NCBI GenBank assembly: GCA_020073705.1
Contig: JAIQES010000028.1
Coordinates: 1 to 53,133 of the forward strand
DNA length: 53,133 nucleotides
Reading direction: 5' to 3'
Source of the DNA: Terriglobia bacterium
GTDB taxonomy: Bacteria; Acidobacteriota; Terriglobia; Acidiferrales; UBA7541
The position numbers were made by a program, and so were the translations under genes. Of the stretch, positions 5,142 through 31,053 are shown piece after piece; within the stretch, counting starts at the first letter, position 1; the number at the start of each line of letters is the position of its first letter. The notes under the pieces are model-generated. The model ran no database searches. It saw only the letters and a program-made list of their open reading frames with translations, and was not told the origin of the DNA.

Positions 5142-5218
5142 GGGGCCGTAGTTCAGTCGGTTAGAACGCCTGCCTGTCACGCAGGAGGTCGCGAGTTCGA
5201 GTCTCGTCGGCCCCGCCA
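5142..5218 (+). tRNA. tRNA-Asp (anticodon GTC)
   Basis: A 77-nt cloverleaf with acceptor GGGGCCG/CGGCCCC, discriminator G, anticodon stem CCTGC/GCAGG with loop CTGTCAC, T loop TTCGAGT and an encoded CCA. It lies 18 bp after tRNA-Val and is probably co-transcribed. The 271 bp that follow hold nothing recognised apart from a TATAAT hexamer at 5438-5443 with no good -35 box. Confidence 0.96.
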
Positions 5219-5489
5219 TATCTTTCCAAGTAGAATCAGTGAAGGCCAAACTGAGTCACTGCCCATCACTTCCCGCCGCCACTTCTTCGTGCCTGCGTGC
5301 CGCGTTCGATAACTTCTTCCTCCTCAGCAATTCGCTCATGTTGTTCTTAATGCAAATGATCAACAGCGAATCCCAGGAACCTGCCAAATAATATTTATGA
5401 CTCCAAAGCGGTCTGAAACATCTCATACAGGGTATCGTATAATTTATGAAGGCTGGGAATTTGCTCTTTTAAGAGGCGATAGGAGATTG

Positions 5490-26076: not shown

Positions 26077-26199
26077 CAACTATTGATGGAAAAACGATAG
26101 TGGCTTGACGATGTTTCCTGGTTTGCCGGGGCCGTCTGGCCTGCGGCCAGTGGAACTCAACGATAGCGTATCAGCAGGCGCTTGAAAGGAGGATGTCAC

Positions 26200-26880
26200 G
26201 TGCTTCGAATTCTTGTCCGCGGCTGTGCCGTCCTCGCTGCTGCGCTCCCGCTCGGACGGGGAGCAGCTTGCAATGCGGCCGGTGATGTGGTGTCTATCCC
26301 AAATCCCACCGTTGACTCTCCCTTAGCCACGACACGAGGCCAGGAAACCCTCGTGCTGGCCGGTGGTTGTTTTTGGGGGATTCAGGCCGTATTCGAACAC
26401 GTCAAGGGTGTGATCAAGGCTACGTCGGGATATGCCGGCGGGTCAGCAGACACGGCGCAATACGAGAGTGTGAGTACAGGCCGGACTGGACATGCAGAAT
26501 CTGTCCAAGTCACTTACGATTTGTCCCAGATCTCCTGCGGCCAACTTCTGAAGGTGTTTTTCTCAGTTGCGCATGACCCGACGCAGTTGAACCAGCAAGG
26601 ACCAGACGTAGGCACCCAATATCGCTCGGCCATTTTTTATTCTTCAGAAGACCAGAAACGAATTGCGCAAGCCTATGTGGACCTACTGAATCAGGCCAAA
26701 GTGTTTCAGCGGCCCATCGTCACTCAGGTTGTCGCGCTGAAGGCCTTTTATCCCGCAGAGGATTACCACCAGGATTACGCCCTCCACCATCCCGAAAATT
26801 TATACATTGCCATCAATGATCTGCCCAAGGTCGATCATCTTCGCAAGCAATTTCCGGAGTATTATGTGGAAAAGAAGTGA
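26200..26880 (+). CDS. msrA: Exported peptide-methionine (S)-S-oxide reductase
   Basis: Reduces the S epimer of methionine sulfoxide. The catalytic motif is AGGCFWG (Cys57), followed by GVIKATSGYAGG, the Glu and Asp residues typical of the active site, and VAHDPTQLNQQGPDVGTQYRS cut across the family core. GTG 26200 is chosen because AAAGGAGG (26185-26192) lies exactly 7 bases before it; an in-frame TTG at 26182 would precede that site. The N-terminus has a positively charged start and a hydrophobic stretch, so the enzyme is probably exported, unlike the cytoplasmic MsrB at 15972. The redoxin upstream may regenerate it. The gene ends 12 bp before the left repeat of the tRNA-Phe insert. Confidence 0.94.
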   Translation: MLRILVRGCAVLAAALPLGRGAACNAAGDVVSIPNPTVDSPLATTRGQETLVLAGGCFWGIQAVFEHVKGVIKATSGYAGGSADTAQYESVSTGRTGHAESVQVTYDLSQISCGQLLKVFFSVAHDPTQLNQQGPDVGTQYRSAIFYSSEDQKRIAQAYVDLLNQAKVFQRPIVTQVVALKAFYPAEDYHQDYALHHPENLYIAINDLPKVDHLRKQFPEYYVEKK

Positions 26881-26892
26881 AATAGACCGGAG

Positions 26893-26916
26893 ATGGTGCC
26901 GGGGGGCAGAGTCGGA
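26893..26916 (+). repeat. Left attachment repeat (tRNA-Phe 3' fragment)
   Basis: A 24-bp sequence identical to 28443-28466. Read on the minus strand it is the 3' half of the T arm, the acceptor strand and CCA of tRNA-Phe, with no further tRNA similarity, so it is the detached copy left by integration. Confidence 0.85.
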
Positions 26917-26996
26917 TTAAGAACCGGCATTCAAAACATGGAACTTCCTGAAAACAAAAAAGCGTGAAAAGCAGGAATGTCGCAAATTGGACGTTT

Positions 26997-27018
26997 TCAG
27001 GTACGTAATAGGTACACG
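26997..27018 (+). repeat. Inner 22-bp repeat, left copy
   Basis: Identical to 28379-28400. It contains two AGGTAC hexamers with an 11-bp period, matching the arm-type sites of lambda-like integrases. Its right edge also overlaps the -35 position of a possible promoter (-10 TATAAA at 27036-27041) for the gene starting at 27053. Confidence 0.75.
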
Positions 27019-27052
27019 CGAAATTCGATCTTCGGTATAAAATCCACTCACT

Positions 27053-27688
27053 ATGACCAACCACCAGTTCTTCTGGTACATGGTTGTGCAAGTTCTCGTC
27101 GCCGTTGGGACTGTCGGCGCGGTGGTCGCTACACTTGTACAAGCGTTCCGAGGAAAACTCTGGCCGCCAAAACTCAGTCTCTTTCTCCGATCTGAGGTTG
27201 GGGAAAAGACAAGATATAGCAATCCGGCACCCGGTCATGCACCAGACGTTCGTTACTATCATCTATGCGTGACGAATGAGCGTTCATGGTCACCTGCCAG
27301 AGATTTGAGCGTTCATCTGATGAGAATTGACCAGCCCGGCCCCGACGATAAATTCCAGATAAAGTGGTCTGGTGATGTTCCTATTTGTTGTAGAGATCAA
27401 CAGATTTATCCCCTAAAACAAACCATTGGTAGCCCGATTGAATATGATATTTGCTGTGTGGGTAAGAATCCTTGTGTCCTACGGATATTACCGATCATTG
27501 CTCCGAACAATCTAACGACTCAATGGACAGGTCCGGTGAAGATCAATCTCTTGCTCCAAGTGAAATGTTCAGAGAACAGCTCGGCCAGAGCTTCAGTTCA
27601 AATTTCGTGGGACGGGACTTGGGATGACGGCGACGCTGAGATGAAAAAGCATTTCAAGATCAAAGTCTCTGAAACGACTCAAACATAG
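27053..27688 (+). CDS. Membrane-anchored protein of unknown function in the tRNA-Phe insert
   Basis: I do not recognise this 211-residue protein. One hydrophobic helix (about residues 6-28, FFWYMVVQVLVAVGTVGAVV) is followed by a soluble domain of about 180 residues, probably beta-rich, with scattered cysteines (DVPICCRD, YDICCVGKNPC). Such an anchor-plus-domain plan is seen in accessory proteins of mobile elements and defence islands, but no function follows from that. A TATAAA hexamer at 27036-27041 would start transcription only a few bases before ATG 27053, so the mRNA may be leaderless; no ribosome site is visible. Its codon use is more AT-rich than in neighbouring core genes. It overlaps the YopX-like gene tail to tail by 10 bp. 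Confidence 0.65.
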   Translation: MTNHQFFWYMVVQVLVAVGTVGAVVATLVQAFRGKLWPPKLSLFLRSEVGEKTRYSNPAPGHAPDVRYYHLCVTNERSWSPARDLSVHLMRIDQPGPDDKFQIKWSGDVPICCRDQQIYPLKQTIGSPIEYDICCVGKNPCVLRILPIIAPNNLTTQWTGPVKINLLLQVKCSENSSARASVQISWDGTWDDGDAEMKKHFKIKVSETTQT

Positions 27689-28065
27689 TTACGTTGCTTT
27701 TGTGCCTTGAACAGTTCAGGATTTTCGTAGATATTGCCGATGACTTCGATGTTGCTCCATTTGCTCAAACATTCCCATCCATAATGTCTTGTAAAGATTC
27801 CGAAACATCCATCTCGCAACTCAATCAGATATCTCATTTTACCTTTTTGTACAACATCTCCTTCATAAATGTCTTTGTGATTTTTGTCCTTTGCGTGCGC
27901 CAACTGCATTAGTTCATATTCTTCGGGACGCTTCAGGGCATATCCCCAGAAACTCCAGTCGTCTTGTAGGTGCATTTTACCTTTGAAATCAGTCGTACCT
28001 TCGCTGGAAGAAAGAAGAACCCCTGGTTTCTCCCAGATTCTAAACTTTATTTCCCTTTTTTCCAT
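27679..28065 (-). CDS. YopX-like phage-type protein
   Basis: A 128-residue protein resembling the YopX family found in phages and prophages of many bacteria; its biochemical role is unknown. Recognisable features are the N-terminal KREIKFRIWEK, the central HKDIYEGDVVQKGK (the family D-x-x-IYEGD signature) and the C-terminal IEVIGNIYENPEL. The length is normal for the family, so it looks intact. The gene is AT-rich relative to the chromosome and contains a run of lysine and asparagine codons, supporting recent arrival. It converges on the unknown membrane protein, and both sit inside the tRNA-Phe insert. No ribosome site is evident before the ATG at 28065. Confidence 0.82.
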   Translation of the reverse strand: MEKREIKFRIWEKPGVLLSSSEGTTDFKGKMHLQDDWSFWGYALKRPEEYELMQLAHAKDKNHKDIYEGDVVQKGKMRYLIELRDGCFGIFTRHYGWECLSKWSNIEVIGNIYENPELFKAQKQRNYV

Positions 28066-28378
28066 TTTATTGATTTAGGAATGATTCTCTGATGGTGGAG
28101 CGCAGTATTTCTGGCAGGCGGTGGCGTTCGCATCCACTTGCGTCCATGCGCTACGGGCTGCATCACTGCAAATGCTTCTTCGCCAGATTCTCGTACGTCT
28201 ACTTCCGCGCCCCCATCAAGGAACCTTTCCATAATCAAACCACACCCGCAGAATCTTGCAAGTCACGCCCTGTGGATAGCGAACGCACAGCGAACAACAA
28301 GCCACAAAAGCTATAGAGATCGTGAAATGCAGAATTGGCGATGCCGCAACCGACATTATTTGAGGCGATTACAGACGC
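28066..28378. other. Gene-free part of the tRNA-Phe insert
   Basis: No convincing coding frame is seen between the YopX-like start and the right inner repeat. Small frames exist on both strands but lack ribosome sites and recognisable sequence. The stretch is a candidate location for a lost recombinase gene, of which no trace was recognised. Confidence 0.4.
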
Positions 28379-28400
28379 TCAGGTACGTAATAGGTACACG
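28379..28400 (+). repeat. Inner 22-bp repeat, right copy
   Basis: Identical in sequence and orientation to 26997-27018, lying 43 bp inside the right attachment repeat. Contains AGGTAC twice with an 11-bp period. Confidence 0.75.
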
Positions 28401-28413
28401 AAGATTTAGCGTC

Positions 28414-28431
28414 CCTAATCATCTGATTAGG
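28414..28431. promoter_or_regulatory. Perfect palindrome between the inner repeat and tRNA-Phe
   Basis: CCTAATCA-TC-TGATTAGG is a perfect 8-bp inverted repeat with a 2-bp centre, just downstream of the tRNA 3' end. It has no T-run on the minus strand, so it is not an obvious terminator; it could be an operator or an excisionase or integrase accessory site. Confidence 0.4.
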
Positions 28432-28442
28432 AGGGAATAAAA

Positions 28443-28466
28443 ATGGTGCCGGGGGGCAGAGTCGGA
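28443..28466 (+). repeat. Right attachment repeat within tRNA-Phe
   Basis: The copy of the 24-bp repeat that forms the 3' end of the intact tRNA-Phe gene (one base beyond CCA, through the T loop). Confidence 0.85.
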
Positions 28467-28518
28467 CTGCCTACGCCGGCCTTTTCAGGGCCGCGCTCTA
28501 CCGGTGAGCTACCCCGGC
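28444..28518 (-). tRNA. tRNA-Phe (anticodon GAA)
   Basis: A 75-nt cloverleaf on the minus strand: acceptor GCCGGGG/CCCCGGC, discriminator A with encoded CCA, D arm GCTC...GAGC, anticodon stem CGGCC/GGCCG with loop CTGAAAA (anticodon GAA), T stem GGCAG/CTGCC. The T loop reads TCCGACT, so the nearly universal T55 is C. This change lies inside the 24-bp attachment core shared with the left repeat, so element and host copy agree. The tRNA-Val and tRNA-Asp genes in this window have normal TTC loops. Confidence 0.92.
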
Positions 28519-28734: not shown

Positions 28735-31053
28735 TTATTTCAGCGAGGCGTCGAACTCTCGCATCCAGTCTTTTCCCTTGAGGACCTCGCGCGGCTTGGT
28801 TCCGTCCGCGGGGCCCACAATGCCGTCCTTTTCCATGATGTCGATCAGGCGCGCAGCGCGGCCGTAGCCGACTCGCAAACGCCGTTGGAGAGTGGAAGTA
28901 GACGCGCGGCCCATCTCACAGACCACGCGCACGGCGTCCTGGTACAGAGCGTCATCGATCTCTTCGCCGCCAGGCTCTCCATCGGAGGCTGCAGCGTTCT
29001 CATCCTTCGGGGCTTCGAGCAGGCGCTCGTTATATACGGCCTTTGCTTGCGACCGCCAGTGGTCGCACACCGCGGTGATTTCATCTTCGGCGACGAACGG
29101 TCCATGCATCCGGTTCAGCCGGGCCGAGCCGGCGGGCAGGTACAACATGTCGCCGCGCCCTAGAAGTGATTCGGATCCGTTGGCGTCGAGAATCGTGCGT
29201 GAATCCACCTTGCTCGCCACCCGGAATGAAATGCGGGCAGGGAAGTTGGCCTTGATCAAGCCGGTGATGACGTCCACGGAGGGCCGTTGCGTGGCAAGAA
29301 TCAGATGAATGCCGACCGCGCGCGCCATCTGTGCAAGCCGGGTGATCGATTCTTCGACGTTGCTGGTGTCCACCATCATCAAATCAGCCAGCTCGTCGAT
29401 GACGATCACGATGTAGGGCAGCGGCTTATGCGGGGAGTTTTCAAGGTCGTCAAACAGCGATAAGGACTGGCCCTTCTGAAACGTCCGGTTGTACTGGTCG
29501 ATGTTCCGGACGCCGCGCTCGGCCAGCAGCTTCAGTCGCGATTCCATTTCACGGGTGGCGTTCCGGAGAACGTTGGAGGCGATTTTCGGGTCGGTGACCA
29601 CCGGCGCCAACAGGTGCGGGATGTCTCCGTAGAGGCCGAGTTCCAGGCGTTTCGGGTCTACCAGGACGAGTTTCAATTCGTCGGGCGTGGCCTTATAGAG
29701 CATCGAAAGAATCAAGGAGTTAAGAAATACGCTCTTGCCTGTTCCCGTTGATCCGGCGATGAGCAGGTGCGGCATCTGCGCGAGGTCGGAGACGCGGTTG
29801 CGGCCGATGAGATCCTTCCCAAGCGCGAGAGTCAGTTTCGAGGGGGAGCCAACGAACTCGGCCGACTCGAGCTGTTCACGAAGCGCGATTGTCTGGCGAT
29901 GGACGTTCGGGACTTCGATGCCGACCGTGGACTTGCCAGGGATACGCTCGATGAGAATGGACTCTGCCTTTAGCGCAAGGCACAGATCGTCGGCAAGGCT
30001 CGTAATCCGGCTGTATTTGATGCCCGCTTCGGGCTTGAATTCATAGGTCGTGACGACCGGACCGGGATTGATCTGGGTGATGCGGCCACCGATATCGAAC
30101 TCCTGGCATTTCTGCTCAATGGCGTGCGCGCATTCCTTGAGGTCGTCCTCGTGTATTCTCTCACTACGCTCCGGCAAGCGAAGCAGGCTGGGGGAGGGAA
30201 GACGGAAGTTGGTGGCTCCCTTGGCAATTCGGGGGGTAGACGATGACTTCGGGGGGGTCTTCTTCTTCTCTTCCACGCCGCCAGACACAACGGCGTACGG
30301 GCGTTCGGATTCTTCGGGCTGGGCCTCGTGCTCCTCTTGTTCGGTGAGGGCATTCGTGTCGCCTTTGGTCACGGCCTGCGACGAGATCGGCGGACGGCCG
30401 TCAATCTTGATTTGTTCGAGCTTCTTGCGCATGCGTTCCTGTTCGCGCGTCTCGCGCCAGGCTGAATAGCAGGCTTTCAGCGGGCTGATCGGATTTAATT
30501 TGCTGAGCGGACCGCGCAGCCATTCATGAGTCTCGATGAACGAGAATTTTGTCGCCAGGAATAGTCCGGCGAAAAACGTGGCGAGTGCGACCAGATTCGC
30601 TCCAGCCGTGTTGAACGCGGCGCGCAGGCCTGCCGAGACCAGATCTCCCAGCAGCCCGCCAGGCGGAATCACGCCGCGGACGTCCGGCGTATGCCAGAGC
30701 GTGAGCAGCGTCGGAACCATCAACAAGAGCATCGAGTAGCCGGCGACTTTGATGGCCGGTGAGTCCACCGTCTCGCTTCGGAACCAGCGTAGCCCGAGCA
30801 CAAAAATGCCCACTGGCAGAAGGAAGACGGCATAGCCGAAGCCCTGAAAGAGCAAGTCCGCGCCATAGGCGCCGACTGGGCCAATCCAGTTGCGGGCCGC
30901 ATGGAGATCAGGGGATTCGGCCGAGACGTTGAACGATGGATCGTGAGGGCTGTAGGAAAGCAGCGCCAAGGCCATCAGGATGGCAATCGTTACGCCCAGA
31001 AAACCAATCAATTCATTGAAACGATGATTTTCCGTTGGAGTCAGAACGCGCAC
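28735..31053 (-). CDS. ftsK: DNA translocase FtsK/SpoIIIE
   Basis: Septum-located ATP-driven DNA pump that clears chromosome ends and activates dimer resolution at cell division. The 772-residue protein has an N-terminal membrane domain with about four TM helices (first 180 residues), a charged linker rich in Glu, Lys and Pro, then the motor. Visible motifs are the alpha-domain YEFKPEAGIKYSRI, Walker A AGSTGTGKS, Walker B VIVIDELADLMM, and ILATQRPSVDVITGLIK. The C-terminal winged-helix gamma domain (LQRRLRVGYGRAARLID) reads polar KOPS-like sequences in known homologues. The start at 31053 fits. The gene is monocistronic between the tRNA-Phe locus and uppP. Confidence 0.96.
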   Translation of the reverse strand: MRVLTPTENHRFNELIGFLGVTIAILMALALLSYSPHDPSFNVSAESPDLHAARNWIGPVGAYGADLLFQGFGYAVFLLPVGIFVLGLRWFRSETVDSPAIKVAGYSMLLLMVPTLLTLWHTPDVRGVIPPGGLLGDLVSAGLRAAFNTAGANLVALATFFAGLFLATKFSFIETHEWLRGPLSKLNPISPLKACYSAWRETREQERMRKKLEQIKIDGRPPISSQAVTKGDTNALTEQEEHEAQPEESERPYAVVSGGVEEKKKTPPKSSSTPRIAKGATNFRLPSPSLLRLPERSERIHEDDLKECAHAIEQKCQEFDIGGRITQINPGPVVTTYEFKPEAGIKYSRITSLADDLCLALKAESILIERIPGKSTVGIEVPNVHRQTIALREQLESAEFVGSPSKLTLALGKDLIGRNRVSDLAQMPHLLIAGSTGTGKSVFLNSLILSMLYKATPDELKLVLVDPKRLELGLYGDIPHLLAPVVTDPKIASNVLRNATREMESRLKLLAERGVRNIDQYNRTFQKGQSLSLFDDLENSPHKPLPYIVIVIDELADLMMVDTSNVEESITRLAQMARAVGIHLILATQRPSVDVITGLIKANFPARISFRVASKVDSRTILDANGSESLLGRGDMLYLPAGSARLNRMHGPFVAEDEITAVCDHWRSQAKAVYNERLLEAPKDENAAASDGEPGGEEIDDALYQDAVRVVCEMGRASTSTLQRRLRVGYGRAARLIDIMEKDGIVGPADGTKPREVLKGKDWMREFDASLK

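Follow-up and report, generated by a model that had tools for sequence, protein, structure and literature searches.

Integrase-less genomic islands that carry attachment (att) sites are known as cis-mobilizable elements (CIMEs), a term defined in excerpts of PMC5704250 and proposed, in excerpts of PMC3146451, for 15 Dehalococcoides islands in ssrA that lack integration modules. The miniature elements described here resemble CIMEs in that attL and attR are retained, integrase and transfer genes are absent and the site is the 3' end of a tRNA gene or ssrA. The same excerpts present CIMEs as decay products moving in cis by accretion, whereas here a miniature form of common architecture, with an end motif and complete arm sites, is found repeatedly in two target genes and three genera. 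Other transposase- or integrase-less hitchers, the MITEs and CALINs (excerpts of PMC11389934), have ends on which an enzyme from another locus acts, as would also apply to the miniature elements; they rely on IS transposases or integron integrases, whereas the miniature elements would use a tyrosine integrase that has arm sites and targets tRNA genes.

Two further systems are close. The microcin H47 island of E. coli is likewise a mobile island flanked by direct repeats and without its own integrase, but it measures 13 kb and has extensive imperfect repeats, and none of 16 tested site-specific recombinases of E. coli K12 appeared to be involved (excerpts of PMC3191183 and PMC5426353). Phage satellites, of which PICMI is a small type, are likewise small islands in the chromosome that depend on a helper and bring accessory genes with them. 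Known satellites are said to need an integrase of their own for excision, and int, alpA and a primase are present in PICMIs (excerpts of PMC10803314); none of these was found in the present insert. In an open-literature search for integrase-less satellites and islands, no comparable miniature family appeared among the matches listed, as far as their excerpts extend.

Anatomy of the tRNA-Phe insert

The window, meaning the whole 53,133-bp stretch of DNA analysed, belongs to contig C53 of a 97% complete, 78-contig assembly of 3.79 Mb (G000). In it, msrA (26182-26880) and ftsK (28735-31053) bracket an insert of 1550 bp, the features of which are collected in Table 1. A preliminary description made from the letters alone had reported identical 24-bp and 22-bp repeats, the latter with AGGTAC twice at 11 bp, together with an intact tRNA-Phe gene, an AT-rich interior, a YopX-like gene and no recombinase. 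All of this was corroborated: the repeat copies are identical, ARAGORN and Rfam both recovered the tRNA, and the GC content in 500-bp windows is 43-50% inside the insert versus 52-63% in the flanks shown. The tRNA is the sole tRNA-Phe gene match in the host assembly, and Rfam found nothing else in the insert. Among 2000 simple base shuffles of the insert, only 3 contained an exact direct repeat as long as 14 nt, and repeats of 24 and 22 bp are not expected by chance.

Table 1. Features of the insert between msrA and ftsK (positions in the window)
Feature	Position	Strand	Basis
Left att core, 24 bp, displaced 3' end of tRNA-Phe	26893..26916		Exact repeat; tRNA positions 53-75 only
Left integrase arm site (putative), AGGTAC twice with 11-bp period; GGTAC start to core 106 bp	26997..27018	+	22-bp repeat
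ORF1, 211 aa, cargo, predicted N-terminal helix	27053..27688	+	Relatives in 4 other class genomes
YopX-family protein, 128 aa	27679..28065	-	PF09643 / phrog_98 / TIGR01671
Small ORF, 63 aa with TTG as first codon, located between the motif and YopX, whose start it overlaps	28047..28238	-	ORF list
Conserved end motif AATCAAACCACACCCNNAGAAT...GCAAG, common to the mini-elements found	28233..28263		Sequence comparison
Right integrase arm site (putative), same letters as left; GGTAC start to core 62 bp	28379..28400	+	22-bp repeat
Right att core, 24 bp, 3' end of intact tRNA-Phe	28443..28466		Exact repeat
tRNA-Phe(GAA), regenerated target gene	28444..28518	-	ARAGORN; Rfam tRNA

The insert has the boundaries of a tyrosine-recombinase tRNA/tmRNA genomic island, namely a regenerated tDNA and a displaced 3' fragment. 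No recombinase was recognised among its ORFs with Pfam or PHROGs, and C53 has no PF00589 match. With att sites present and genes for integration and transfer absent, it agrees with this part of the definition of a CIME; as regards the other part, descent by decay from an ICE or IME and movement by accretion with a neighbour, neither an integrase remnant in the insert nor a PF00589 integrase on C53 was found. The integrase and the regulator or primase that would mark a phage satellite were not found in the insert, in which no replication or packaging gene was recognised either.

Regarding the cargo, the YopX identification rests on matches to PF09643 (6e-15) and to phrog_98 in PHROGs; three relatives in the PDB all lack a functional name. 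ORF1 remained below every cut-off (best Pfam value 0.095; none in PHROGs, PADLOC or NCBIfam), and its low-confidence structure model, which has an N-terminal helix, was too poor for a fold search (mean pLDDT 48). The possibility that all relatives carry the same insert, raised in the preliminary description, was not borne out, as ORF1 relatives occur in only 5 of 399 class genomes, its own included. Neither a tRNA nor the end motif was found in the stretches around the four others; at the relative in G171, a GGTACA pair resembling the arms is present at a distance of about 0.65 kb. The 63-aa ORF gave no Pfam match. PADLOC, run on 10 proteins, returned one weak match, Csx19 (E 0.002), to a small protein of contig C67.

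Sister elements, their shared motif and empty sites

The tRNA-Phe loci of 20 relatives were surveyed in longer stretches, allowing up to 4 mismatches in the repeated core, and such a core was found at one of them, 1488 bp away, in congener G005. The order in the G005 insert is core, arm pair, plus-strand gene, minus-strand YopX, a motif of about 30 bp, arm pair and tRNA-Phe. Its YopX protein matches PF09643 at 2.7e-18, and its plus-strand gene is hydrophobic by eye, without a Pfam match. The left and right arms of G005 are the same as each other and unlike those of the window element.

The motif lies near the right end of all mini-elements found and is apparently non-coding. With up to 3 mismatches it occurs at five places in 4 of the 399 class genomes, every one beside the 3' end of tRNA-Phe or ssrA: in the tRNA-Phe elements of the window and G005, and within about 165 bp of the ssrA 3' end on G000 contig C67 and in G205 and G303. 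An exact scan of 84,980 genomes returned five matches, on four Acidobacteriota contigs and one Spirochaetales contig. Two of the four (palsa_189, which is G303, and palsa_188, locus L179) are near-identical by eye, and the Spirochaetales match (L178) was judged a probable chance occurrence, being coding-like by eye with no tRNA found. Exact copies were absent from the viral contigs scanned.

The G205 element, from another genus, spans 1824 bp in ssrA and has its own arm pairs and other cargo. On C67 the left end and arm are degenerate and lie 6.1 kb away, and in G303 no left core was recovered, nor any exact pair at the right arm position. Miniature elements with both ends thus number only three, the other members being partly decayed; they occupy two target genes in three genera.

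Two identities considered for the motif were rejected. As an integrase C-terminus, it was missing from the ends of the G000 integrases examined and, on the plus strand with up to 6 mismatches, from the 7 of 8 integrase stretches in which it was sought (L250, where no RNA gene was found, was left out); in addition, the reading frames upstream are not conserved by eye. As a sigma-70 promoter, it showed no promoter-like site, and the counts for the region were the same as in shuffles. The motif, which lies upstream of the minus-strand cargo, may have a regulatory or terminal function common to the elements.

The left flank of the G205 element continues through the core into an intact ssrA in congener G183 (215 columns at 78% in one alignment), and in G016, also a congener of G205, the same flank reaches an intact ssrA with a gap before the core. 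By these alignments, the ssrA genes of G183 and G016 are empty sites for the G205 element. This comparison covered 15 of the 17 ssrA loci over the cut-off, L190 and L200 being left out as holders of elements. For the window element, an empty tRNA-Phe site in related genomes, as envisaged in the preliminary description, did not emerge in strictly orthologous form; msrA and tRNA-Phe are 7.9-11.1 kb apart in congeners G001, G002 and G004.

Integrase islands and the geometry of cores and arms

A total of 46 tRNA-Phe and ssrA loci, a set to which the window locus does not belong, were scanned for a pair of 11-bp period near the RNA 3' end; little downstream sequence was available at three of them (L189, L042 and L055). 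Five carried an arm pair: three mini-elements and two integrase islands, G033 and G007. In these islands long integrase frames of 394 and 402 codons, respectively, run through the arms, and the G033 integrase matches Phage_integrase (PF00589, 1.6e-17). This tyrosine-recombinase family is present in 40 of the 89 family genomes (E<=1e-20).

Thirty integrase loci, drawn from a longer match list, were examined for the same signal. In 17 of them an 11-bp-period pair (at least 6 nt exact) lies 74-94 bp before the expected C-terminus of the integrase, and two such pairs were seen elsewhere in the stretches; the remaining 13 have no exact pair at the expected place. The pairs are of GGTACAC type at 11 of the 17 loci, and 15 of the 17 adjoin tmRNA, tRNA-Lys, -Leu, -Cys or -Ser. 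A search for both ends used 8 of 12 longer integrase stretches and located them in two, G033 (16,712 bp, ssrA) and G242 (14,429 bp, tRNA-Lys); a second core (up to 5 mismatches) was not found in five, and one had no RNA gene. The full G033 island carries FRG, ArdC, kinase-TPR and CAP12/Pycsar-type TIR genes.

Core-to-arm distances on the left and right are 106 and 62 bp in the window element, 106 and 65 in G005, 104 and 67 in G205, 103 and 66 in island G033 and 105 and 63 in island G242, so that the two distances total 168-171 bp in three mini-elements and two full islands. The arms of the insert accordingly stand at distances conserved for the integrase family. In an alignment of left ends the arm position falls in the same columns for seven independently cut ends, that of C67 being degenerate; the rows for G287 and G187 were cut by an assumed distance and do not test it. 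Several left ends also carry AAGTTATTGATTC at 45-48 bp, exactly in G242, with 1 mismatch in G033 and G005 and with 4 in G205, and it was not seen by eye in the left end of the window element. Because the full islands have the same att layout as the mini-elements, the enzyme class missing from the latter can be identified, at the level of sequence, as this tRNA/tmRNA-targeting tyrosine-recombinase family. Integrases of the Tn916 type similarly use directly repeated arm (DR-2) sites in pairs near both ends, as in the mini-elements; unlike these, Tn916 is a conjugative transposon that encodes Int and Xis and is not tRNA-specific.

Across the 3.79 Mb of the host genome the arm 19-mer GGTACGTAATAGGTACACG has three copies, both arms of the insert and one at C43:25000. 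The preliminary description had suggested looking in relatives for the 22-bp repeat next to an integrase gene; the 19-mer was absent from the 60 other genomes searched (up to 2 mismatches) and, in exact form, from the viral contigs scanned. On C43 (L024:4895-5018) a fragment resembling the 3' end of tRNA-Ser is followed, 105 bp from its start, by the exact 19-mer, a layout by which C43 is read as carrying a left end of the window element's type at another tRNA. A tRNA-Ser(GCT) gene lies 7.86 kb to the right of this scar, and the interval is doubtful as a full element, since no right arm copy was found in it and G001 and G005 have only the tRNA there in common. A stretch of about 200 bp just left of the tRNA-Ser of C43 (L024:12547-12744) is 75% identical to one just left of the C67 left core (L172:4038-4231); the two may represent a dispersed repeat or another type of end.

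Arm letters vary among the mini-elements (GGTACGTAATAGGTACACG, GGTACGTTTTTGGTACG, GACACG.. and GGAACAC..), a divergence which suggests that different lineages may track different integrases. The pattern GGTACGTNNTNGGTACR, built from the arms of the window and G005 elements, occurs five times in 89 genomes, solely in these two elements and the C43 left end, compared with two occurrences of a reversed-pattern control. The family integrase was not found in G000, G205 or G303 (E<=1e-20). G005 holds one, 68% identical, with no arm pair found beside it. Contig C68 of G000 (L034, complement, about 5044) retains a short C-terminal remnant of a family integrase (at most 50% over about 60 aa), followed by TTGCACAAATATTGCACG, a different pair of 11-bp period; the sequence just beyond appears to resemble the end of RNase P RNA.

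Several other pairs were noted. In G163 (L260, C60, complement 8141 and 8309) the distance between arm pairs is 168 bp, with integrase fragments nearby; such a spacing would be expected at a junction of tandem elements. A different integrase directly follows tRNA-Ser(GGA) on G000 contig C47 (L185:272-1447); the pair CGGGTTACGCGCGGGTTACG, similar to an arm site, lies some 50 bp from the end of that tRNA. Pairs of the GGTACAGTTTCGGTACA type are scattered, with a tRNA or integrase found nearby solely in G103, and G257 has a GGTACAAAATAGGTACA pair 53 bp after tRNA-Asp in opposite orientation.

Collapsed remnant, phage satellite or trans-mobilised element

The insert is probably a non-autonomous integrative element of miniature size that is mobilised in trans and corresponds, among tRNA islands, to a MITE. 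It would consist of two or three cargo genes between complete att ends for one tyrosine-recombinase family, with no recombinase of its own. Mobilisation in trans is supported by an end layout equal to that of two full integrase islands of 14-17 kb, by sisters with a common motif and by the empty ssrA sites of one sister. The preliminary description had set a remnant against an element mobilised in trans and had taken the paired arms to favour the latter; this preference is supported by the sisters, the empty sites, the geometry of the islands and the lack of a detected integrase remnant, although none of the integrases found has arms that match and could thus be named as helper.

Each element might instead be what remains of an inactive full-length island after deletion of the integrase and most of the cargo, its att ends surviving passively, a CIME in the strict sense, which we regard as unlikely. 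Shrinkage does appear to occur in the integrase family: in G287 two arm pairs 1710 bp apart enclose an integrase C-terminal remnant matched by 24 of the 30 integrases at E<=1e-3 (best 1.6e-23), at a place where neither an RNA gene nor a left core was found. G000 is without an intact family integrase, and C43 and C67 look decayed, as collapse would have it. However, in G033, G007 and G242 the integrase frame extends through the right arm; a simple collapse should therefore leave some of the gene behind, yet no remnant was detected in six mini-element stretches with the 30 integrases (best E 0.069; G287 was the positive control). Collapse also accords poorly with the similar size and gene layout of the three both-ended elements, with arms that are still identical on the left and right in the window and G005, and with their common end motif, which was not found in the 7 of 8 integrase-bearing stretches searched for it. 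The absence of an integrase remnant, together with the shared motif, the two target genes across three genera and the empty sites for one element, favours a lineage of integrase-less elements.

Excision and packaging of the element by a temperate acidobacterial phage carrying a family integrase, which would also be a sub-case of mobilisation in trans, seems improbable as a separate explanation. The integrase family was found in 14 IMG/VR contigs (28-51% identity) and in Tunturiibacter phage Tunturi_4 (35%), and viral contigs commonly carry YopX genes. The idea gained weight from L283 (IMGVR_UViG_3300009092_000004), a viral contig of 58.9 kb in which the integrase is followed, at 5192-5318, by the left-end layout of the islands: a core resembling a tRNA 3' end, then AAGTTACTGATTC at 48 bp, then the pair TACACGGCTGCTACACGGC, whose GGTAC-equivalent starts at 106 bp. 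L283 is therefore a candidate phage user of this att system, and a phage helper is possible. On the other hand, the L283 arms are unlike those of the window and no clean right arm pair was seen there, the other 14 of 15 phage loci do not show this layout, the viral contigs scanned hold neither the exact end motif nor the window arm 19-mer, and the insert has no recognised replication or packaging gene. At another phage locus, L279, two unlike pairs lie 167 bp apart.

A decayed tandem tRNA duplication, which the preliminary description had considered, or chance repeats without recombination can be set aside as scarcely credible: nothing but the short core match speaks for either, the 24-bp match reaches no further than the final 23 bases of the tRNA and is thus not a decayed tandem tRNA, and there are arm pairs, a geometry common to the integrase islands and empty sites for a sister.

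For an element mobilised in trans, the family integrase would come from an island or phage, either resident in the same cell or newly arriving, and would bind the arm pairs; it would excise the element as a circle of about 1.55 kb, which would re-integrate at the 3' end of tRNA-Phe. More tentatively, and with slightly less than even confidence, we propose a family of recombinase-less tRNA/tmRNA elements of 1.5-1.8 kb that would persist by fitting their arms to any available integrase from one large acidobacterial family, MITE-like parasites of tRNA-island (perhaps phage) integrases with interchangeable small cargo and a common end sequence.

Islands without an integrase are easily dismissed as debris. 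The present elements offer a candidate minimal parts list, in less than 2 kb, for mobilisation in trans by a tRNA integrase: a core, two arm pairs at fixed distances and one end motif. If active, they would move accessory genes while eluding integrase-based searches and would represent compact cargo vehicles. Additionally, the divergence of their arms makes the specificity between integrase and arm open to a comparative test.

A last observation concerns the target gene. The T-loop of the host tRNA-Phe reads TCCGACT, whereas all 29 relatives compared begin the loop with TTC; T (psi55) is near-universal at the position where the host has C. The left att copy of the insert has the same T-loop letters as the host tRNA-Phe, and GTCGGA or ATCGGA is found in the left copies of elements G033, G205 and G242. 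Since left att copies carry matching unusual letters, the element core may have overwritten the T-loop of tRNA-Phe.
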